Source: Mesorhizobium sp. M2A.F.Ca.ET.046.03.2.1 (GTDB taxonomy: Bacteria > Pseudomonadota > Alphaproteobacteria > Rhizobiales > Rhizobiaceae). Taken from it: a stretch of DNA of 64,000 nucleotides. The notes beneath the pieces are model-generated. The model saw only the letters and a list, made by a program, of their open reading frames with translations, was not told where the DNA came from and did no database searches. The position numbers were made by a program, and so were the translations under genes. Each line of letters starts with the position of its first letter. Position 1 is the first letter of the stretch. The stretch spans positions 6,994,001-7,058,000 of the forward strand of contig NZ_CP034449.1 in the NCBI RefSeq assembly GCF_003952425.1. The letters run 5' to 3'. This document shows, piece after piece, positions 14,136-23,336 of the stretch.

Positions 14136-14918
14136 CTAAGCCATTTCGGGGCGTCTGGAGGCCTCGCGAATGGCTTTATGGACATTGCGCTGCAGGTCCA
14201 TGAAGGCGGCGCTCTCCATGACCTCCTCGCGCCGCGGGCGCTCGATGTCGACGTCAAAAGTCCGCATGATGCGCCCGGGGCCGATGCCCATCACGACAAT
14301 GCGGTCCGACAGATAGACGGCTTCTTCGACGTCGTGGGTGACGAAGAGCACGGTCAGCCTGTGCTCCTCCCAGATCTGGGTGAGCAGCTCCTGCATCTGA
14401 TGCCGGGTCAGGGCATCGAGTGCGCCGAAGGGCTCATCCATCAAGAGCATCTTGGGGCGGTAGGAAAGCGCGCGCGCAATGGCGACACGCTGCTTCATGC
14501 CGCCCGAAAGTTCGGATGGATAGAGATTGGCCGAGCGCGGGAGCTTGACCAGGTCGAGATGCTCAAGCGCGATCCTGCGGCAGGTGGCGCGGTCATGGCC
14601 GGCAGCCTTGAGGGCGAACTCGATGTTCTGCTGCGCCGTCAGCCAGGGCAGCAGCGTATAGGACTGGAAGACGACGCCGCGATCGAGACCTGGCTTCAGG
14701 ATCGGCGACCCGTCGATGTCGAGTTCGCCCGAGTCGAAATCCTGCAGTCCGGCGACGATCGACAGCAGCGTGCTCTTGCCGCAGCCCGACGTGCCGACCA
14801 GCGACACGAACTCATTGTCGGCGAGGTTGAGGTTGATGTCGCGCAGCACTTCGGTGCGCCGCGCTCCGGTGCCGAAACTCTTGTGGAGGCCCTTGATCCG
14901 CAGTTTGGGGAAATTCAT
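14136..14918 (-). CDS. ABC transporter ATP-binding protein, nitrate/sulfonate/taurine type
   Basis: This 260-residue cytoplasmic ATPase resembles SsuB/TauB. Walker A GTSGCGKST lies at 42-50, the signature LSGGMKQR at 137-144 and Walker B LLMDEPFGALD at 158-168. The switch histidine lies in LFVTHDVEEAV. It is the last gene of the binding protein-permease-ATPase operon, 13 bases after the permease. The nearby dehydrogenases point to a C3 sulfonate such as dihydroxypropanesulfonate as substrate; that is inferred from context. Confidence 0.9.
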   Translation of the reverse strand: MNFPKLRIKGLHKSFGTGARRTEVLRDINLNLADNEFVSLVGTSGCGKSTLLSIVAGLQDFDSGELDIDGSPILKPGLDRGVVFQSYTLLPWLTAQQNIEFALKAAGHDRATCRRIALEHLDLVKLPRSANLYPSELSGGMKQRVAIARALSYRPKMLLMDEPFGALDALTRHQMQELLTQIWEEHRLTVLFVTHDVEEAVYLSDRIVVMGIGPGRIMRTFDVDIERPRREEVMESAAFMDLQRNVHKAIREASRRPEMA

Positions 14919-14931
14919 CGGCCGGACCTCG

Positions 14932-15810
14932 TCATGAGCGGCTGTCCTGGCGAAACAGCACCTTGCCCAGCGCCTTCATGACCTGATCGGTGATCAGGCC
15001 GAGAATGCCCAACAGAAGGATGTAGCCGATGATGGTGTTGGTCTGGAAATAGCGCTGCGAGACGGTGATGCGATAGCCGAGGCCGGATGTCGCGGCGACG
15101 AGCTCGGCCAGCACCAACCAGGTCCAGGCCCAGCCCAGGCTGATGCGCAGCGTATCCCAGATGCCCGGCAAGGCGCTGGGCACCACGATGCGCGTCAGGA
15201 TCTTGCGGTCCGGAAGGCCGAGCGTCCTGCCGAGACCGACGAAGTCGGCCGGCACGCGCTTGACGTTGTCCATGATCATCAGCACCTGCTGGAAGAAGGT
15301 GCCGATGAAGATGATCAGGAATTTCTGGACGTCGCTCGTGCCCGCCCACAGGATGGAGAGCGGCACGAAGGCGACCACCGGCATATAGCGGATGAAATCG
15401 ACCAGCGGCTCGATGGCCGCTTCCCAGGTTCGGAAGCTGCCGATCAGCACGCCGATCGGAATGGCGAGCACCGAGGCGATGAGGAAGCCGACCGAAATAC
15501 GGTAGATCGAGGCCTCGAGATCGGTGAGCAGCGTGCCGTCGGCCCAGAGCTTGCCGAGTTGCGTCGCCACGCTGGCGGGCGACGGCAGGAAGATCGGCTT
15601 GACCAGGTCGAGCCCCGTCGCCGCCCACCAGGCGAGGCCGAGACCGGCAAAGACGGCCACGGCAATGATCAGGAAGCGGGAGCGCGCGATGGGCGCGCCG
15701 ATCCCGGAGGATCGGCGTCGACGCATCGCCTGCCTGGCGGCAGGTCCCGTCGCCGGGCCGGGCGGGCTCGCTTTGCCGGCAGGCTCGTCGGACATCTCGG
15801 CGGCCGCCAC
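14932..15810 (-). CDS. ABC transporter permease, nitrate/sulfonate/taurine type
   Basis: The protein has 292 residues with about six TM helices. A proline/glycine- and arginine-rich cytoplasmic N-terminus of about 45 residues comes before the first helix. The EAA-type coupling loop is visible around FVGLGRTLGLPDRKILTRIVVPSALPG in its usual place before the last helices. It forms the membrane channel for the adjacent ATPase and binding protein, 4 bases from the latter. Confidence 0.9.
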   Translation of the reverse strand: MAAAEMSDEPAGKASPPGPATGPAARQAMRRRRSSGIGAPIARSRFLIIAVAVFAGLGLAWWAATGLDLVKPIFLPSPASVATQLGKLWADGTLLTDLEASIYRISVGFLIASVLAIPIGVLIGSFRTWEAAIEPLVDFIRYMPVVAFVPLSILWAGTSDVQKFLIIFIGTFFQQVLMIMDNVKRVPADFVGLGRTLGLPDRKILTRIVVPSALPGIWDTLRISLGWAWTWLVLAELVAATSGLGYRITVSQRYFQTNTIIGYILLLGILGLITDQVMKALGKVLFRQDSRS

Positions 15811-15814
15811 GAAC

Positions 15815-16819
15815 CTACTGTGCGGCCTTGACGAAGGCCGGATCGATCATCTGCTCCGGCGTCACGTCGGCCTGAAGCAGCCCGGCATTCTTGGCGGCGG
15901 CCTCGACGTCGGCGAATGTCTTGGTGGAAAAGTCTCCCGTCAGCGCGCCCTTGTTCTCGGCAAGCGAATAGTAACGCACGCCTTCGAACGCCGTATTCAG
16001 ATCCTCGACACTCGAGCCGACCGCCTTGGAGATGATGGCGCGCCCGCCGGGCGTGTCGGCATTGTAATCCTTGAGCGCCGCATCCCAGGCCTTGATCATG
16101 GCCAGCACCTGGCCGGGCCGCGACTTGATCACCTCGTCGCGCACGACCAGCACGTCGCTGATCAGGCCTGGGTCCTCGCCGGCCGTGAAGAGAAGCTTGA
16201 CGTCCTTGTTCTGCGCCCTGGCCGTGGTGAGATAAGGCTCATAGGTGACCGCGACCGGGACGCGGCCGGCAATCAGCGCGCTGCCGGCATCGGCGGCCGG
16301 CATCGGCACCGGCTGGACGTCGGCGATCGACATGCCGTTCTTGGACAGCGCGTATTTCAGCAGGATGTCGCTGGTCGTGCCTTCCTCGAAGGCGACCTGC
16401 TTGCCCTTGAGATCGGCGACCGAGTCGACGTCCTTGCCGGCGATCATGGCGTCGGCGGTCATCGAGACGTCGAGCAGCAGCACGATCTTGACCGGCAGGC
16501 CGGCCGCGACCATGCCCATGGCGGTGTGGGTGGCGATGTTCGCCGCATCGAGCTGGCCGCTCGCCAGGGCGGCGTTGATGTCCTTGTCCTCGGTGAAATT
16601 GACGATCTGGACGTCCGACAGACCGCTCGCCTTGAACAGGCCCTTGGCTTCGGCGACATGCCACTGGCCGTAGCCCAGCCACGGCTCAATGCCGATCTTG
16701 AACGATCCGGCCTCGGGCGTCGCGGGAATGACCGTATCGGCGGCGTGGGCGAGCGGGGCGAAGCCGATGGTCGCCGCCACCACGAGCGCACGGAATTGTC
16801 CTGTGAGGTTAAGCATCAT
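15815..16819 (-). CDS. ABC transporter substrate-binding protein, SsuA/TauA-like
   Basis: This 334-residue periplasmic protein begins with a signal peptide ending LAHA-AD. The mature protein opens FKIGIEPWLGYGQWHVAEAK and has the NMT1/SsuA-type fold, with IATHTAMGMVAAG and FEEGTTSDILLKYAL in the binding cleft. The ATG at 16819 is chosen because AAGGGG lies 7 bases upstream; the frame is open further but without a signal sequence at its start. A GntR-type palindrome lies 165 bases upstream, linking its expression to the dehydrogenase genes. Confidence 0.9.
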   Translation of the reverse strand: MMLNLTGQFRALVVAATIGFAPLAHAADTVIPATPEAGSFKIGIEPWLGYGQWHVAEAKGLFKASGLSDVQIVNFTEDKDINAALASGQLDAANIATHTAMGMVAAGLPVKIVLLLDVSMTADAMIAGKDVDSVADLKGKQVAFEEGTTSDILLKYALSKNGMSIADVQPVPMPAADAGSALIAGRVPVAVTYEPYLTTARAQNKDVKLLFTAGEDPGLISDVLVVRDEVIKSRPGQVLAMIKAWDAALKDYNADTPGGRAIISKAVGSSVEDLNTAFEGVRYYSLAENKGALTGDFSTKTFADVEAAAKNAGLLQADVTPEQMIDPAFVKAAQ

Positions 16820-16983
16820 CTTTGTTCCCCTTGATGATCCAGAGCGCTTTTTTGAACCAAACTTCCCGTCCGGTGAGAATGCGGCTTCTGTTTCTTGCGG
16901 CACTGTGCCTCGGCGTCTTACCTGCCACGTCGACGGGAGTGAAACGATATTCAACGTCGGCGATGACGGATGTCAAGGCTAAA

Positions 16984-17003
16984 ATACATACATGCATATA
17001 CAA
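16984..17003. promoter_or_regulatory. GntR operator, site 1 (ABC transporter operon)
   Basis: ATACATACATGCATATACAA is an imperfect palindrome built on TGTATATGCA-like half sites. It differs from site 3 at one position in 20. The AT-rich, HutC-like sequence stands out in the GC-rich surroundings. Confidence 0.7.
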
Positions 17004-17101
17004 GCTGGAGAGGCTGATTGCCGTGCTCTTGGCAGCATTTGGGCAAGCCGATCCCTGCCCCGTCATGACCGGCGCCGGAGGCGTGAACGATTCGACCCGT
17101 C

Positions 17102-17833
17102 TCACGTCTTGCGCGACGGAGAATAGCGGCTGCCGAGCGAGTAGCGGCTGCCGACATAGGTCAGCTTGCTGATGGTGGCGACGACCGCGCCAGTCCATGT
17201 CCGGCGATGCAGCAGCAGGCAGCAGGCGCCGACGTCGATGGCGAGGTGCCGCGCCGTCTCGGCATCGGCCGGGACAGCGGAAATGATGTGTTCGACCTCG
17301 GTCACCGGCGTCTTCTGCATCAGGTAATCATAGGTCGCCGTCTTCGAGAAATCCTGCTTGTCGTAGTCCGGGATCAGACTCGGATTGACGAAGCGCTCTT
17401 CCAGTTGCACGGGCAGGTCGTTCTCGAAATTGACGACCACCGAATGATAGATCGCGGCGCGCTTGGCGAATTCGAAGGACAGCGAGAGCTCCTTGGTCGG
17501 CGTGATCCTTTCGAGGACGAGAACCTCGGAGCGATGCCTGTTGCCGCGCGCGACGATCTCGGCCGCGATGTTGTTGATCTCGATCAGCGTCGATTGTGGC
17601 TTTGGCGGCGCGATGAATGTCCCCACGCCCTGCAACCGGATCAGGAAGCCGGCCGAGGTCAATTCCCTCAAGGCGCGGTGGACGGTCATGCGCGACACGC
17701 CGAGCGCGGCCACGAATTCATTCTCGGACGGCAGCTTGCTGTCCTTGGTCCACTTGCCGGTTCCGATGTTGGTCAGGATGTAGTCCTTGACCTTCTCGTA
17801 GAGGGGGCTGGCCGTATCGGGCAAAGCACTCAT
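17102..17833 (-). CDS. GntR family transcriptional regulator, HutC subfamily
   Basis: The protein has 243 residues. The N-terminal winged helix is typical of GntR: KLPSENEFVAALGVSRMTVHRALRELTSAGFL, then the wing QGVGTF. The C-terminal UTRA ligand domain ends in the HutC-like LLHRRTWTGAVVATISKLTY. A duplicated (GSRYS) tail, GSRYSLGSRYSPSRKT, closes the protein. It is the last gene of the hisD-like/adh/gntR operon, and three matching palindromes lie upstream of the neighbouring units. It is probably a repressor released by the substrate or an intermediate. HutC homology alone would suggest histidine/urocanate, but no hut gene is present. Confidence 0.92.
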   Translation of the reverse strand: MSALPDTASPLYEKVKDYILTNIGTGKWTKDSKLPSENEFVAALGVSRMTVHRALRELTSAGFLIRLQGVGTFIAPPKPQSTLIEINNIAAEIVARGNRHRSEVLVLERITPTKELSLSFEFAKRAAIYHSVVVNFENDLPVQLEERFVNPSLIPDYDKQDFSKTATYDYLMQKTPVTEVEHIISAVPADAETARHLAIDVGACCLLLHRRTWTGAVVATISKLTYVGSRYSLGSRYSPSRKT

Positions 17834-17863
17834 TCAAAAGTCCTTTCCGGCGAACATCGGAAA

Positions 17864-18886
17864 TCAGGTGCCGGCAGGCTGCCGCAGCCGGATAATGGTT
17901 TTCAAGCCGTCGCCCTGCCCCGCCAAAAGACGCTCATAAGCGGCAGGAATATCGTCCAGGCCGATCTCGCGATCGATCAGGCTGATCAGTGGTCCGGACA
18001 GCTCCGCCAGCATCCCGATGGCGTCGGGCAGCTCATCGGCAAAGGCATGGCAGCCCAGCAGACCGATCTCGCGTTCGACCAGCATGTTGGGGTCTATGTC
18101 GAGGCGGCCGTGGAAAATGCCGACCAGCGCCACGGTGGCGCCGGAACCCAGAACACCCAGCAGTTGGTTGAGCGCGGCGATGCTGCCGGTCGCCTCGACG
18201 GCGGCAAGCAGAGGTGCGTCGGCGGTGGCTTCGGCAATGGCCTCGCGGTCGAGATCGACGATGGTGGCGCCGGTCACCCGGGCGACACGCTCGCAGCGCG
18301 CCTTGTTGCGGTCGGCGATCAGCACCCTGCCCGGGAGCGTCCGCGACAGGAGCAGCGCCGCCAAGCCGCCGATGGTGCCGCAGCCCACGACAAGCACCGA
18401 ACCCGCGGTCTTCGGCAGGCGCCGCACAGCATGCAGCGCGACGGCGAGCGGCTCGGCCATGGCCGCCACTCTTTCATCCAGCGCGGCGTCGATGAGATGC
18501 AGCAGGCGCGCCGGCAGCACCGTCTGCTCGGCAAAGCCGCCGTCGCATACTTCGCCGACGAAGCCCAGCGAGGCGCACAGATGCCGCCTGCCCGCGCGGC
18601 ATTGCGCGCATTCCCCGCACCAGAAGCGGGAATCGGCGACCACCCGGTCACCCACGGCGACGGTGCCGACGCCCTCGCCGACCGCGACCACCGTGCCGGT
18701 CAGTTCATGGCCGGCCGTCGACGGCGCGCGGCTTATCCATTGTCCGGTGCGGAAATTGTGGAGGTCGGAACCGCAGATGCCGGCGGCGTCGACATTGAGC
18801 TTCACCCAGCCCGGCTCGGGAGCCCCCGGCGCGGCGATATCCTCGACACGCAGGTCGCCGGGGCCATGCAGTCTGGCGGCCTTCAT
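17864..18886 (-). CDS. Zinc-dependent alcohol dehydrogenase, candidate DHPS dehydrogenase (HpsP-like)
   Basis: This 340-residue medium-chain dehydrogenase has catalytic zinc residues in GICGSDLHNF and AGHELTG. The structural zinc loop is CGECAQCRAGRRHLC and the Rossmann motif VVGCGTIGGLAA. It lies 12 bases after the histidinol-dehydrogenase-like gene and 30 bases before gntR. In Cupriavidus pinatubonensis, HpsP is an alcohol dehydrogenase that works with the SDR HpsO to interconvert DHPS enantiomers. This gene occupies the equivalent place. A polyol dehydrogenase role is the alternative. Confidence 0.88.
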   Translation of the reverse strand: MKAARLHGPGDLRVEDIAAPGAPEPGWVKLNVDAAGICGSDLHNFRTGQWISRAPSTAGHELTGTVVAVGEGVGTVAVGDRVVADSRFWCGECAQCRAGRRHLCASLGFVGEVCDGGFAEQTVLPARLLHLIDAALDERVAAMAEPLAVALHAVRRLPKTAGSVLVVGCGTIGGLAALLLSRTLPGRVLIADRNKARCERVARVTGATIVDLDREAIAEATADAPLLAAVEATGSIAALNQLLGVLGSGATVALVGIFHGRLDIDPNMLVEREIGLLGCHAFADELPDAIGMLAELSGPLISLIDREIGLDDIPAAYERLLAGQGDGLKTIIRLRQPAGT

Positions 18887-18898
18887 CGCGCCGGCCCG

Positions 18899-20221
18899 TC
18901 AGGCGCCGAGATAGCGGTCGCGGATTTCCGAGACCGCGTTCTCATGCGAGCTGAAGCCCTCATAGCGGGCAAGCCTGCGGGCATGGCCGGCAAGCTCCGG
19001 ATAGGCGGCCGAGGTCACATAGCCGACCGACGAACGTTTCAGGAAATCCGTCACCGAAAGCGGCCCGTAAGTGCGCGCCCAGCGGCTGGTCGGCAGCACC
19101 GCATTCGGCCCGAGGACGAAATTGGCGAGCGTCACCGGCGTGTGCGGACCCATGAGGATCTCGGCCGCCTCGGTGATGTGGCCGAGATGCGCGAACGGCT
19201 CTCTGGACAGGATTTCGAGGTGCTCGGGCGCATAGTCGTTGATGAAGCGGTAGCTGTCCTCCAGTGACGCGGTCAGCACGATGCCGCCGCGCTTGCCGGT
19301 CAGCACCGCGCGCGAGAACTCGACCCGCTGCTCGGTCATACGGGACCAGTGGTCGGGAAGTGCTGCCAGGGCCGCGTCGGCGACCTTGCGGCTGTGCGTC
19401 ACGAGATAGGCGGAAGAGTCCGGTCCGTGCTCGGCCTCGATCAGAAGGTCGAGTGCGGCGAGGCCGCCGTCGACGCTGTCGTCGGCGAAGATGATCGCTT
19501 CCGACGGGCCGGCCGGAAGGCCGGTGTCGATGATCGAGGACAGCAGGCTCTTGGCCGCCACCACCCAAGGGCTGCCCGGGCCGACGATCTTGAGCGCGGG
19601 CTTCACCGTCTCGGTGCCATAGGCGACGGCCGCGACAGCATGCGCGCCGCCGCATTTGTAGACGGTCTCGACTCCGGCGAGCCGAGCGGCGACCAGGGTC
19701 GCGGCATCGACGGAACCGTCCGCGGTCGGCGGCGTCACGATGGCGATCTGCGGCACGCCGGCGATGACGGCCGGAACCGAGGTCATCATCGTCACCGACG
19801 GAAAGGCGCCCTTGCCGCGCGGAACGTAAAGCGCGACCGAGCCGATCGGCGTGTAACGGTCGCCGGCATAGGCGCCGGGGCGGACTTCCTTGAGCCACAT
19901 CGTCTCGGGACGCTGCTCCTCGTGGAAATGCCTGATGTTTGTGATGCCGAAGCGGATGCTGTCGATGACATCCTTGTCGACCTTGCCGAAGGCAGCGTCG
20001 AACTCAGCCTCCGAGACCTTCAGATTACCCGCGGCCACATCGGCCTTGTCCAGATCCCGGACGAAGCGGAGCAGCGCCGAGTCGCCTTCCGTCCTGACCG
20101 CATCAAGAATCGGGCGGACCTTCTCGACGAAGACCGAGAGGTCGGCCTCGGCGCGCTTCAGCAGGCTCGCCCGCTGTTCGGCGCTGGCGGATGAGAGGTC
20201 GTGGAAGCTGATCTCGGACAT
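18899..20221 (-). CDS. Histidinol-dehydrogenase-like enzyme, probable sulfopropanediol 3-dehydrogenase (HpsN-like)
   Basis: The protein has 440 residues of the HisD fold and keeps the catalytic pair in YAPEHL (E333, H334). Positions that bind zinc and the imidazole in E. coli HisD are changed. The zinc ligand Q259 is E262 here (in IEAEHGPDS) and D360 is N367 (in LANFVLGPN). H367 is A374 (PNAVLPT), while H262 and H419 are kept as H265 and H426. Loss of the imidazole-contacting histidine argues against histidine biosynthesis. HpsN of the DHPS pathway belongs to this family and oxidises DHPS to sulfolactate in two NAD-dependent steps. Location with a sulfonate-type transporter, an SDR and an ADH supports that role. 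GAGGAG precedes the start. Confidence 0.85.
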   Translation of the reverse strand: MSEISFHDLSSASAEQRASLLKRAEADLSVFVEKVRPILDAVRTEGDSALLRFVRDLDKADVAAGNLKVSEAEFDAAFGKVDKDVIDSIRFGITNIRHFHEEQRPETMWLKEVRPGAYAGDRYTPIGSVALYVPRGKGAFPSVTMMTSVPAVIAGVPQIAIVTPPTADGSVDAATLVAARLAGVETVYKCGGAHAVAAVAYGTETVKPALKIVGPGSPWVVAAKSLLSSIIDTGLPAGPSEAIIFADDSVDGGLAALDLLIEAEHGPDSSAYLVTHSRKVADAALAALPDHWSRMTEQRVEFSRAVLTGKRGGIVLTASLEDSYRFINDYAPEHLEILSREPFAHLGHITEAAEILMGPHTPVTLANFVLGPNAVLPTSRWARTYGPLSVTDFLKRSSVGYVTSAAYPELAGHARRLARYEGFSSHENAVSEIRDRYLGA

Positions 20222-20245
20222 GGCTGCTCCTCAGAAACGCGGGAA

Positions 20246-20265
20246 AAGTATATACATGTACGTAT
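20246..20265. promoter_or_regulatory. GntR operator, site 2 (hisD-like/adh/gntR operon)
   Basis: The minus strand reads ATACGTACATGTATATACTT, matching site 1 at 16 of 20 positions and containing the perfect palindrome TACATGTA. It lies 25-44 bases before the first gene of the operon. Confidence 0.7.
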
Positions 20266-20321
20266 AATGCTCGCCAGTATTTTTCTGCGTCCGCAGGGTT
20301 GGTCGGCCACGGCAAACCGCA

Positions 20322-21095
20322 TCAGATCGAGGCAAGAAAGCCCCCATCCACCGGAAAGCACTGACCCGTGATGTAGGATGAGGCGTCCGAGGCCAGGAAG
20401 ACAGCAATGCCGTGCAGGTCCGAAAGGTCGCCGAAGCGATGCTGCGGGATCTTGGCGAGCATCGATTGCTGCCACGCCTCGTCGGCGTAGAACACCTCGG
20501 TCATCGCCGTCCTGAAATAGCCAGGAGCAATCGCGTTGACCCTGATCCCGAGACCCGCCCACTCCGCCGCAAGCGCCCGCGTCATGCCGAGCAGGCCCGA
20601 CTTCGACGAACCGTAGGGCACGGCCGTGGGGATGCCGACCTCGGAGGTCAGCGAGCACAAATTGATGATGGCGCCGGGCCGTCCGGCATCGCGCATGTGG
20701 CGGGCGGCGGCCTGAGCGCAGAAGAAGGCGCCCTTGAGGTTGGTGTCGACAATCCTGTCCCAGAGCGCTTCATCGACATCGAGCGAAGGCCTGACCTCTT
20801 CCATGCCGGCATTGTTGACTAGGATATCGAGACCGCCAAGCAGGTTGGCTGCCTCGGCGGTCGCGGCGCGGCAGCGGGCGACGTCGGTGACATCCAGGGC
20901 AATGGCATGCGCAACCCCGCCGGCGGCCCGGATCGCCTCCGTCGTCTCCTGCAGCGAAGCAAGGCTGCGCGCCATGACGGCGACAGCGGCGCCGGCCGCA
21001 CTCAGCGCCTCGGCGATGCCGCGCCCGATGCCGCGGCTGGCGCCGGTGACGAGCGCCTTCCTGCCCGACAGGTCGAAGAGGGAAGCATTGCGCAT
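20322..21095 (-). CDS. SDR family oxidoreductase, candidate HpsO-like DHPS dehydrogenase
   Basis: This 257-residue classical short-chain dehydrogenase has the cofactor motif TGASRGIGRG, NNAG in VNNAGMEE, and catalytic S/Y/K in CSLTSEVG and PYGSSKSG. Its start is chosen from AAGGAGG 6 bases upstream. It precedes the HpsN-like gene by 100 bases in the same direction but has its own GntR palindrome. Within a DHPS pathway it would match HpsO, the SDR partner of HpsP. The sequence alone does not fix the substrate. Confidence 0.87.
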   Translation of the reverse strand: MRNASLFDLSGRKALVTGASRGIGRGIAEALSAAGAAVAVMARSLASLQETTEAIRAAGGVAHAIALDVTDVARCRAATAEAANLLGGLDILVNNAGMEEVRPSLDVDEALWDRIVDTNLKGAFFCAQAAARHMRDAGRPGAIINLCSLTSEVGIPTAVPYGSSKSGLLGMTRALAAEWAGLGIRVNAIAPGYFRTAMTEVFYADEAWQQSMLAKIPQHRFGDLSDLHGIAVFLASDASSYITGQCFPVDGGFLASI

Positions 21096-21155
21096 GTCGA
21101 TCCTCCTTGGCCTTGCCGGCCTGCCCTCGCCCGCGAGACTAACCGATCCTTGGTT

Positions 21156-21175
21156 ATACATACAAGCATATACAA
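21156..21175. promoter_or_regulatory. GntR operator, site 3 (SDR gene)
   Basis: ATACATACAAGCATATACAA lies 61-80 bases before the SDR start and is 19/20 identical to site 1. It completes a three-site set in which every transcription unit of the cluster has one copy. Confidence 0.7.
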
Positions 21176-21290
21176 TGACTTTGGGAGCCGAGTGAACAGC
21201 CGACCGCGGAGAGCGGGCTAACCGCAACCGATAACGCAGCCCTTTACGGCACTTTTCCCGCCGCCGCGATTTCGCGCGGCGACCTGCCCC

Positions 21291-23336
21291 TCAGATCCTG
21301 ATCCCGAACCGGATGCCGTCATAGATGGCGGCGTGGATGTTGCGCGAGGCGACCGCGTCGCCGATGCGAAACAGCACGAAACCGCCTTCGGCATTGCGGG
21401 ATGGGAAGATGTCGCCGCCGTTCACCAGCCGCTCATAGTCGACCGCGCCGCCATTCTTCGACAGCGGTTTGAGCGCAAGATAGAGGTCGTCGAGCGGCGC
21501 CGTGCCATGCTCGACCACCACCTGGTCGACGCGCCTTTCGCCGCGCCAGCCGTCGGCAAAGTCCGAGGCGAGCTCGGCGACGAGCTGGTTGCCCTCGCGC
21601 CGCACCGAACGCAGCCTTGTGTTGATGGTGACGGTGACACCCTTTTCGTGGAAGGCGCGCATATAGGGCACGTGGTTCATGCCGCCCATTTCCGGCGCGA
21701 AGAAGCGCTCCGGCGAGACCAGCTCCAGCTTCGAACCGCTGTTGGCGATGAGTTCGGCCGCGCCCATGCCCTGATGGCCGCCATTGTCGTCGTAGAGCAG
21801 CACATTCTCGGCCGGTTTGACGGAGCCTGCCATGATATCCCAGCTCGAGGTGACGAGATTGTCGCCTTCCGTCAGCGGCGGGTTCTGCGGCATGCCGCCC
21901 GTCGCCACGATCACGACATCCGGCGCCAGCGCCAGCACATCGTCCTTCTCCGCCCAGGTGTCATAGCGGATCTCGACGCCGAGGCGGTCGAGCTCGGCCA
22001 GCCGCCAGTCGATGATGCCGATCAGCTCCTTGCGGCGCGGGTTCTGGGTGGCGAGCCGCACCTGGCCGCCCGCTTGGCTGGAGGCTTCGAGCACCGTCAC
22101 CTGGTGGCCGCGTTCGGCCGCGACGCGCGCGGCTTCAAGACCACCAGCGCCCGCCCCCACCACCACGACCCTCTTCTCCGGTCCTTCGCTCTTCGCGATG
22201 ATGTGCGGAATGGTCGCCTCGCGACCGGTTGCGGCGTTGTGGACGCACAGCGCCTCGCCGCCCTCATAGATGCGGTCGAGGCAATAGGTGGCGCCCACGC
22301 ATGGCCGGATCTCGTGCTCGCGGCCTTCCATCACTTTCCTGACGATGTGCGGATCGGCGATATGGGCGCGCGTCATGCCGACCATGTCGAGCTTGCCGGT
22401 GGCGATGGCGTGGCGCGCCGTGGCGACATCGGAAATGCGCGCCGCGTGGAAGGTCGGGAACTTGGTCGCCGCCCTCACCTCGCCGGCGAAATCGAGATGC
22501 GGCGAGGAGCGCATGCCGGTCACAGGGATGACCTTGGTCAGCGACGCGTCGGTCTCGATCGTGCCGCGGATAATGTTGAGGAAGTCGACCTTGCCGGAAT
22601 TGGCAAGCCGCCTGGCGATCTCGACACCGACTTCCTTCGAGATACCCTTTTCGAGATCCTCGTCGGCAACCATGCGAATGCCGACGATGAATTTTTCCCC
22701 GACGGCGGCGCGGACCGCGTCGAGCACCATGTCGGTGAAGCGCAGCCGGTTGTCGAGCGAGCCGCCGAACTCGTCGTCGCGATGGTTGGTGAGCGGCGAC
22801 CAGAAGCCATCCATCAGATGTCCATAGGATTCGAACTCGATGCCGTCGAGGCCGGCCGCCTGACAACGCTGCGCAGCCGCGGCATAGTCGGCGACGATGC
22901 GCTCGATATCCCACTCCTCGATGGTTTTCGGAAAGGCGCGGTGCGCCGGCTCGCGCACCGGCGAAGCGGACAGCACCGGCAGCCAGTCGGCCTTGTTCCA
23001 GCCCGTGCGGCGGCCGAGATGGGTGATCTGGATCATCACCTTGCAGTCATGCTCATGGCAGGCATCCGCCAGTTCGGCGAGCCAGGGCACGATGCGGTCG
23101 TCATAGACATGCAGATTGCCGAAAGCGGCCGGGCTGTCGCGCGAGACGATCGCCGAGCCCGCCGTCATGGTGAGCGCCATGCCGCCCTTGGCTTTTTCGG
23201 CATGGTAGAGCCGGTAGCGCTCCTTCGGCATGCCGTCCTCGGAATAGGCCGGCTCATGGCTGGTCGACATCACCCGGTTCTTCAGCGTCAGGTGCTTGAG
23301 CTGGTAGGGTCGGAGAAGCGGGTCGTTGCTGGTCAT
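21291..23336 (-). CDS. FMN/FAD/Fe-S oxidoreductase of the OYE-trimethylamine dehydrogenase family (demethylase-like)
   Basis: The protein has 681 residues. An old-yellow-enzyme FMN barrel (about 1-340) precedes an iron-sulfur cysteine region and a C-terminal FAD/NAD-binding part (VVVGAGAGGLEAARVAAERG from residue 391). The architecture matches trimethylamine dehydrogenase, dienoyl-CoA reductase and the N-methylproline/dimethylglycine demethylases of rhizobia. The cysteine motif is CVGATYC (C346, C352) plus C364, so one cysteine of the usual four-cysteine cluster motif is replaced by alanine. Together with the MttB-family gene 4 kb away, it suggests catabolism of a methylated amine or betaine. 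It is monocistronic as far as can be seen. Confidence 0.85.
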   Translation of the reverse strand: MTSNDPLLRPYQLKHLTLKNRVMSTSHEPAYSEDGMPKERYRLYHAEKAKGGMALTMTAGSAIVSRDSPAAFGNLHVYDDRIVPWLAELADACHEHDCKVMIQITHLGRRTGWNKADWLPVLSASPVREPAHRAFPKTIEEWDIERIVADYAAAAQRCQAAGLDGIEFESYGHLMDGFWSPLTNHRDDEFGGSLDNRLRFTDMVLDAVRAAVGEKFIVGIRMVADEDLEKGISKEVGVEIARRLANSGKVDFLNIIRGTIETDASLTKVIPVTGMRSSPHLDFAGEVRAATKFPTFHAARISDVATARHAIATGKLDMVGMTRAHIADPHIVRKVMEGREHEIRPCVGATYCLDRIYEGGEALCVHNAATGREATIPHIIAKSEGPEKRVVVVGAGAGGLEAARVAAERGHQVTVLEASSQAGGQVRLATQNPRRKELIGIIDWRLAELDRLGVEIRYDTWAEKDDVLALAPDVVIVATGGMPQNPPLTEGDNLVTSSWDIMAGSVKPAENVLLYDDNGGHQGMGAAELIANSGSKLELVSPERFFAPEMGGMNHVPYMRAFHEKGVTVTINTRLRSVRREGNQLVAELASDFADGWRGERRVDQVVVEHGTAPLDDLYLALKPLSKNGGAVDYERLVNGGDIFPSRNAEGGFVLFRIGDAVASRNIHAAIYDGIRFGIRI

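Follow-up and report, generated by a model that had tools for sequence, protein, structure and literature searches.

Analysis of the window (the whole stretch of 64,000 nucleotides studied here) identified a putative regulon in which one HutC-related repressor most likely controls an ABC importer and three dehydrogenases. At the level of sequence the regulon is well supported because its three operator sites occur nowhere else in the genome and are conserved in Mesorhizobium, and a tandem form precedes the same genes elsewhere; binding and repression by the regulator are predicted from this arrangement. The regulon, which is uncharacterised and offers candidate operators, is found in many Rhizobiales, including on pSymA of S. 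meliloti. The HisD-like dehydrogenase within it is not an HpsN and belongs to a separate clade, marked by exchanges at two of its four zinc-ligand positions.

The importer, regulator and dehydrogenase genes all lie on the minus strand. The importer consists of a nitrate/taurine/sulfonate-type ATPase (14136-14918) scoring under equivalog cut-offs, a TauC/SsuC-like permease (14932-15810), also under cut-offs, and an NMT1/SsuA-type solute-binding protein (SBP; 15815-16819). A sulfonate-type transporter had been proposed from sequence alone, and this stands in so far as the importer is taurine/sulfonate-like, but the SBP falls below the SsuA-family cut-off (TIGR01728, 144.9 bits against 163.5). 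Beyond it lie a HutC-family GntR/UTRA regulator (17102-17833), a zinc-type alcohol dehydrogenase (ADH; 17864-18886), the HisD-like dehydrogenase (18899-20221) and an SDR (20322-21095), the three enzymes together representing the families PF00815, PF13561 and PF08240/PF00107. An OYE-like protein (21291-23336) was considered as a further member and rejected, as no operator precedes its gene and it is present in only 12 of 80 homologous loci.

One operator can be read directly before each transcription unit, as the sequence-only reading had described. ATACATACATGCATATACAA (16984-17003, plus strand) lies upstream of the importer genes, with 165 bp between it and the SBP start, ATACGTACATGTATATACTT (20246-20265, minus strand) upstream of the HisD-ADH-GntR unit, 25 bp before the HisD start, and ATACATACAAGCATATACAA (21156-21175, plus strand) approximately 61 bp before the SDR start. 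Counted by hand, the pairs agree at 19, 16 and 15 of 20 positions, so that the range of 16-19 given earlier fits two pairs and overstates the third. The consensus ATACRTACAWGYATATACWW, allowing ≤3 mismatches, matched three times in the window, whereas 100 shuffled sequences averaged 0.00 matches, and the genome-wide scan that had been suggested as a check (7.37 Mb, ≤3 mismatches) returned the same three operators only, with 0 for a reversed-pattern control. The operator appears to take the form of two half-sites near WTGTATRT, arranged as a direct repeat 10 bp apart. By eye, 6-7 of the 8 positions of TGTA-N2-TACA are matched within the three operators, inside the longer tandem motif, and the half-sites look related to this HutC element. 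The short HutC-type palindrome TTGTATATACAA proved uninformative when searched in the same genome, giving one unrelated place at 1 mismatch and likewise one for the control.

The operators are largely conserved in Mesorhizobium clusters. Among 40 loci from this genus (L044-L085, with L073 and L081 dropped as they are cut by contig ends), a site with ≤3 mismatches was present before the SBP gene in all 40, before the SDR gene in 38 and before HisD in 24, the remaining 16 being absent from the HisD count; this count rises to 25 with the addition of L072, a locus whose ORF was called from a start upstream of the site. In total 117 sites were found in 844,830 bases versus 2 for the reversed control, and an extra site precedes a kinase-like gene in 12 of the 16 loci having that gene. 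Many clusters from other Rhizobiales, though not all, carry a related tandem site before SDR, PotA or HisD. At least one match was identified in 28 of 42 non-Mesorhizobium loci, and 43 of 44 matches (counting overlapping and two-strand readings) have a cluster gene start within 300 bp; the reversed control gave 11 matches, gene placement being confined to the forward pattern. The 14 loci of the 42 in which this search found no tandem site include those on an S. meliloti plasmid (L041) and a Phyllobacterium plasmid (L040).

The regulator scores above the curated HutC cut-off (TIGR02018, 274 bits against 220) and below that of the stricter model PRK14999 (249.5 against 424). Together with the exclusive and conserved sites, this upholds the earlier proposal of a HutC-like GntR with matched operators over the importer and dehydrogenases as the probable arrangement. 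The regulator shares no more than 30% identity with HutC from the genome's own hut locus, and its ligand may therefore differ. The two systems share a HutC-model GntR/UTRA regulator and a catabolic-looking gene cluster, and their operator elements may be related through TGTA-N2-TACA. However the hut locus has the better-scoring HutC and a perfect TGTATATACA between divergent genes, in agreement with the HutC operator TGTA-N2-TACA given in the accessible text of PMC12977541, whereas the paralog in the window is accompanied by the longer tandem operator, the importer and the dehydrogenases instead of hut enzymes. The window operators lie approximately 23 kb from the hut operator, and this distance is their sole link to hut.

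Membership of the HisD-like enzyme in PF00815/TIGR00069 is clear (TIGR00069, 419 bits; cut-off 243.8), although this is a coarse criterion because HpsN also belongs to PF00815. True HisDs score higher against it than HpsN does (up to 254 versus 169 bits), all 7 solved HisD sequences listed in the comparison ranking above all 4 HpsN ones. In a 35-row tree the clade of the window enzyme (21 rows) is split by a 100/100 branch from the HpsN group, which comprises 3 rows, one assigned by motif only, with long branches flagged; the enzyme forms a third clade that is not nested in classical HisD either. According to the accessible text of PMC11382572 the HpsN hallmark is G-R-Y-A/S-H, and Lys353 contacts the sulfonate. 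The window enzyme instead reads G-K-G-A-F, with Phe at the position of His126, and has Phe368 at the position of Lys353. It is 29-30% identical to the HpsN proteins of two sulfonate-gene clusters, which are 84% identical to each other. It also differs from classical HisD in the metal site. At the zinc ligands of HisD, Gln259, His262, Asp360 and His419 (E. coli numbering), the enzyme has Glu, His, Asn and His (E262, H265, N367 and H426). All 110 homologs, a set with many close relatives, carry Glu and Asn at the two exchanged positions, whereas the 4 references have Gln and Asp. A low-confidence stretch of the HisD model (residues 357-403) covers N367 and A374, and we therefore base no claim about the pocket on it.

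This clade with an altered metal site seems, from gene content, to provide the sole histidinol dehydrogenase of some bacteria. Five genomes (G408, G361, G438, G265 and G073), all with a HisB match, have an enzyme of the Glu/Asn type as their sole HisD match, HisD and HisB being the two steps of the histidine pathway covered by the search. In G408 the gene for this enzyme adjoins a HisC-HisB fusion. A comparison of 11 active-site positions showed no difference between the window enzyme and its counterparts in G361, G438 and G408. Overall identity to the enzymes of the single-HisD genomes is 45-55%, and their branching order is weakly supported. Three more genomes with a single Glu/Asn-type enzyme, including the incomplete G212 (81%), gave no HisB match, so a biosynthetic role need not extend to every member of the clade. 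On the strength of the five genomes and the TIGR00069 score, the window enzyme could be read as a spare histidinol dehydrogenase for biosynthesis, with the sites belonging to an unrelated regulator. We regard this as very unlikely, since the genome already encodes a canonical HisD (543.9 bits), 68 of 80 loci have SDR, ADH and GntR all inside the region retrieved around the HisD-like gene, and the operator sites track the cluster.

The type of importer varies across the 80 loci, being NMT1/SsuA-type in 43, PotD-type in 28 and neither at ≥45% identity in 9 (including L087 and L123, which have an NMT1-type importer at 35-36%), with no locus having both. The importer is an indecisive clue to the substrate, and the PotD type does not point to a sulfonate; among its closest relatives of known structure, matched at low scores, are binders of agropine and of spermidine/putrescine. 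Additional genes encode a HisC-family protein (28 of 80 loci, though absent from the window's own cluster), an APH-fold small-molecule kinase (32 of 80) and an FMN alpha-hydroxy-acid oxidase (8 of 80). The S. meliloti cluster L041 (hisC3, SDR, PotABCD, hisD2, ADH and GntR) has a core related to that of the window (HisD 77%, SDR 70%, ADH 60% and GntR 68% identical) but has a PotD-type importer in place of the NMT1/SsuA-type one, and an aminotransferase, kinase-like protein and FMN oxidase as extras. From gene names and order we infer that it corresponds to SMa0387-SMa0402. According to the accessible text of PMC2912261, a tolC mutant shows lowered expression of SMa0387, 0391, 0392, 0394, 0396, 0398 and 0402 together with genes for nitrogen assimilation; the portions of the SMa0387-SMa0402 literature available state no function for the cluster. 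A literature search, mostly at title and abstract level and with subscription journals largely missing, found no report of the cluster's function or of histidinol catabolism in rhizobia.

The sequence-only reading had equated the three enzymes with HpsN, HpsO and HpsP and taken dihydroxypropanesulfonate (DHPS) as the substrate imported and oxidised. The HpsN/HpsO/HpsP pathway of Cupriavidus and Roseobacteraceae does share with the window three enzyme superfamilies, a transporter and a regulator in one cluster, the trio applied after BLAST served as the HpsN neighbourhood filter in one survey (section 2.8 of PMC11382572), and NMT1/SsuA-type SBPs also serve sulfonates. However the placement of the HisD-like enzyme in the tree, where the earlier reading would have it beside HpsN, and the Phe residues at both contact positions oppose the assignment, as do the SDR and ADH, which are not orthologous to HpsO and HpsP: the SDR is 39-40% identical to HpsO and the ADH 32-37% identical to HpsP over parts, far under the identity of HpsO and HpsP proteins to each other. 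A genome search covering two of the known sulfolactate-processing lyases (SuyAB, Xsc and CuyA) gave at best 292 bits for Xsc (cut-off 676.4) and 32% identity for a SuyB-like protein, and none of the eight genes typed in 14136-23336 is a sulfonate lyase or sulfopyruvate decarboxylase. A third protein of the HisD family in this genome (L005) lies closer to HpsN, at 376 bits. It has GKFPM in place of GRYAH, and its neighbours are two SDRs and what is presumably a sugar-type ABC importer, and it therefore does not rescue the DHPS reading. With the PotD-type importers also considered, DHPS is unsupported as the substrate and such a regulon highly improbable. The HisD, SDR and ADH trio alone is thus no marker of DHPS use, which corrects an easy misreading.

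A scheme in the style of the DHPS pathway could instead act on a different small substrate, a diol or amino alcohol that is neither sulfonated nor an imidazole, for example one of opine, polyamine or sugar origin, the SDR and ADH sorting stereoisomers ahead of a HisD-type four-electron oxidation. The PotD-type importers and their relatives, the APH-fold kinase, the FMN oxidase and the nitrogen-linked expression in S. meliloti (as reported in the accessible text of PMC2912261) are consistent with this, and we consider it a serious possibility though short of probable; against it, no specific substrate can be named, and imidazoles are suggested by the HutC-family regulator together with the aminotransferase of the HisC family.

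Our best explanation, held tentatively, is a HutC-paralog regulon for an imidazole or other nitrogen-containing C3 alcohol, such as histidinol or an imidazolyl diol, and not DHPS. An imidazole or histidinol-like substrate is the best guess because of the sole-HisD genomes with HisB, the HutC-family regulator and the HisC neighbour. The HutC paralog would bind the three operators and hold back uptake and oxidation until the substrate or an intermediate appears, whereupon it would release them. Judging from the enzyme classes and from the analogous roles of HpsN/O/P and HisD, the importer would take up a small alcohol whose stereoisomers the ADH and SDR would interconvert or oxidise, and the HisD-like enzyme would convert the primary alcohol to the aldehyde and then the acid, a product that may enter histidine/urocanate or amino-acid breakdown. 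More speculatively, and on balance doubtfully, the Glu/Asn clade could be an active alternative histidinol-type dehydrogenase that several alphaproteobacteria use in place of classical HisD and that rhizobia have drawn into a HutC-paralog regulon scavenging a plant or soil imidazolyl alcohol through two interchangeable importers. Simple oxidation of histidinol would need neither the SDR nor the ADH, a point that counts against the imidazole explanation.

We located three 20-base candidate operators by direct reading of the window, at 16984-17003 (+), 20246-20265 (-) and 21156-21175 (+), where the sequence-only reading had placed them. Compared in pairs, they share the same base at 19, 16 and 15 of 20 positions, so that the 16-19 put forward earlier holds for two pairs but not for the third. 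Each site precedes one minus-strand unit: the importer genes for the SBP (15815-16819), permease (14932-15810) and ATPase (14136-14918); the HisD-like gene (18899-20221) with ADH (17864-18886) and GntR (17102-17833); and the SDR gene (20322-21095). The site consensus has three matches in the window against a shuffle expectation of 0.00, and the genome scan that had been proposed, allowing ≤ 3 mismatches across 7.37 Mb, returned the same three only (reversed control 0). In all likelihood the three units form a real regulon. Directly upstream of the SDR gene lies a gene for an OYE/FadH-type long flavoprotein (21291-23336, minus strand), before which no operator was found.

Of 176 homologous stretches, one scan kept the best 80, with ≤ 10 kb on each side; the closest named loci among these are from Mesorhizobium (99 %), which by homology places the window's genome in that genus. 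Counting relatives with at least 45 % identity by BLAST, the HisD-like gene has SDR, ADH and GntR together around it in 68 of these 80 loci, and each taken singly in 75, 77 and 72 respectively, some of the missing neighbours reflecting contig ends. The flavoprotein occurs in 12 of the 80, 11 of them close Mesorhizobium and one Phyllobacterium. After removal of two truncated loci from the Mesorhizobium set L044-L085 (42 loci), a site lies before the SBP gene in all 40 that remain, before SDR in 38 and before HisD in 24 (25 with L072), and 12 of the 16 loci with an inserted kinase-like gene have an additional site upstream of it. These loci total 117 sites in 844,830 bases versus 2 for the reversed control.

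Importers among the same best 80 of 176 are of the NMT1/SsuA type in 43, the PotD type in 28 and neither in 9, with both in none. We scanned the remaining 42 loci, of either importer type (the four plasmid loci L040-L043, plus L086-L123), for the tandem motif WTGTATRT-N2-WTGTATRT at ≤ 2 mismatches, and obtained 44 matches versus 11 for the reversed control, counted at any position and including overlapping and two-strand readings. Of the 44, 43 have an SDR, PotA or HisD start within 300 bp (PotA in 16). No match at this threshold came from 14 of the 42 loci, among them S. meliloti L041 and Phyllobacterium L040. The operator thus accompanies much of the cluster family and, where it is present, seems to govern importers of both types.

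The window GntR scores over the NCBI HutC model (274 bits, cut-off 220) and below a second, stricter HutC model, while a separate HutC encoded in the genome scores higher (295 bits). That HutC belongs to a hut locus on the genome contig C1 (~6982.3-6989.8 kb; L220:3280-10820), which ends ~4 kb before the window and contains hutU, hutG and hutH by model, together with probable hutI and hutF genes, named from their translations. Its HutC shares 30 % identity with the window regulator, and a perfect TGTATATACA lies between divergent genes of the locus, ~23 kb away from the closest of the window operators. HutC of P. aeruginosa has been reported to bind TGTA-N2-TACA (PMC12977541); the window operators, by comparison, resemble a HutC site lengthened into a tandem, and are predicted to be bound by the window regulator.

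The cluster had been read as a dihydroxypropanesulfonate (DHPS) regulon encoding HpsN, HpsO and HpsP. The HisD-like enzyme scores 211-254 bits against the seven solved HisD sequences listed versus 163-169 against the four HpsN ones. HpsN is described as carrying G-R-Y-A/S-H, with His126 and Lys353 contacting the sulfonate (PMC11382572), whereas the window enzyme has G-K-G-A-F and a Phe at the Lys353 position. Two reference clusters (L124 and L125), taken as genuine HpsN-O-P on the motif GRYSH, the adjoining SDR and ADH, and the presence of ComDE in the one cluster and of SuyAB-like UxaA-family proteins in the other, share 84 % (HisD), 71 % (SDR) and 66 % (ADH) identity, versus 29-30 %, 39-40 % and 32-37 % with the window, which speaks against HpsO and HpsP. 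The proposed tree placement likewise went against HpsN: among 35 rows, three of them HpsN (two from the reference clusters, one by motif), the window's clade of 21 separated from all others at 100/100, the HpsN sister group contained another HisD-family paralog of the same genome and classical HisD formed a third group, the deeper order being unsure because the program flagged long branches. Xsc had no match over cut-off in the genome, and the top match to a SuyB-like protein reached 32 % identity, as would be expected of a sugar-acid dehydratase. Support for the DHPS pathway is therefore lacking at its entry and for Xsc and SuyB, two of the three exits known for it, and DHPS is a very improbable substrate.

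Our tentative single best guess is an imidazole or histidinol-like substrate; another small alcohol without a sulfonate is about as likely. A HisC-family aminotransferase is present in 28, an APH-fold kinase in 32 and an FMN alpha-hydroxy-acid oxidase in 8 of the best 80 of 176 loci, and the S. meliloti aminotransferase exceeds two HisC model cut-offs; none of the three was found among the window cluster genes typed by family searches. In a tolC mutant of S. meliloti, SMa cluster genes are reported to decrease in expression together with genes for nitrogen assimilation (PMC2912261). By gene name and order these SMa genes probably represent the L041 cluster, and the pattern hints indirectly at a substrate that contains nitrogen.

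Further HisD-family proteins were observed. The same-genome paralog (L005, L175; C1 2158821-2160041) has the motif GKFPM, keeps Lys353 and adjoins two SDRs and what seems to be an ABC importer of the sugar type; it may be a sulfonate or other diol dehydrogenase. Two other Mesorhizobium genomes (L168, L170) encode a second HisD of the window's Glu/Asn type, neighboured in L168 by a TPP enzyme, class III aminotransferase, GMC oxidoreductase, SDR and ATP-grasp protein, several of these gene families being in common with L170. In L156 and L158, from ~2 Mb genomes (94 % complete) in which HisB had no match, a Glu/Asn-type HisD directly adjoins a kinase-like gene, possibly a minimal form of the pathway. 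In L157 and L159-L161 a HisD of this type forms one gene row with phosphoglucomutase and phosphoglucose isomerase; these two were typed in L157 and assigned by similarity in the others.
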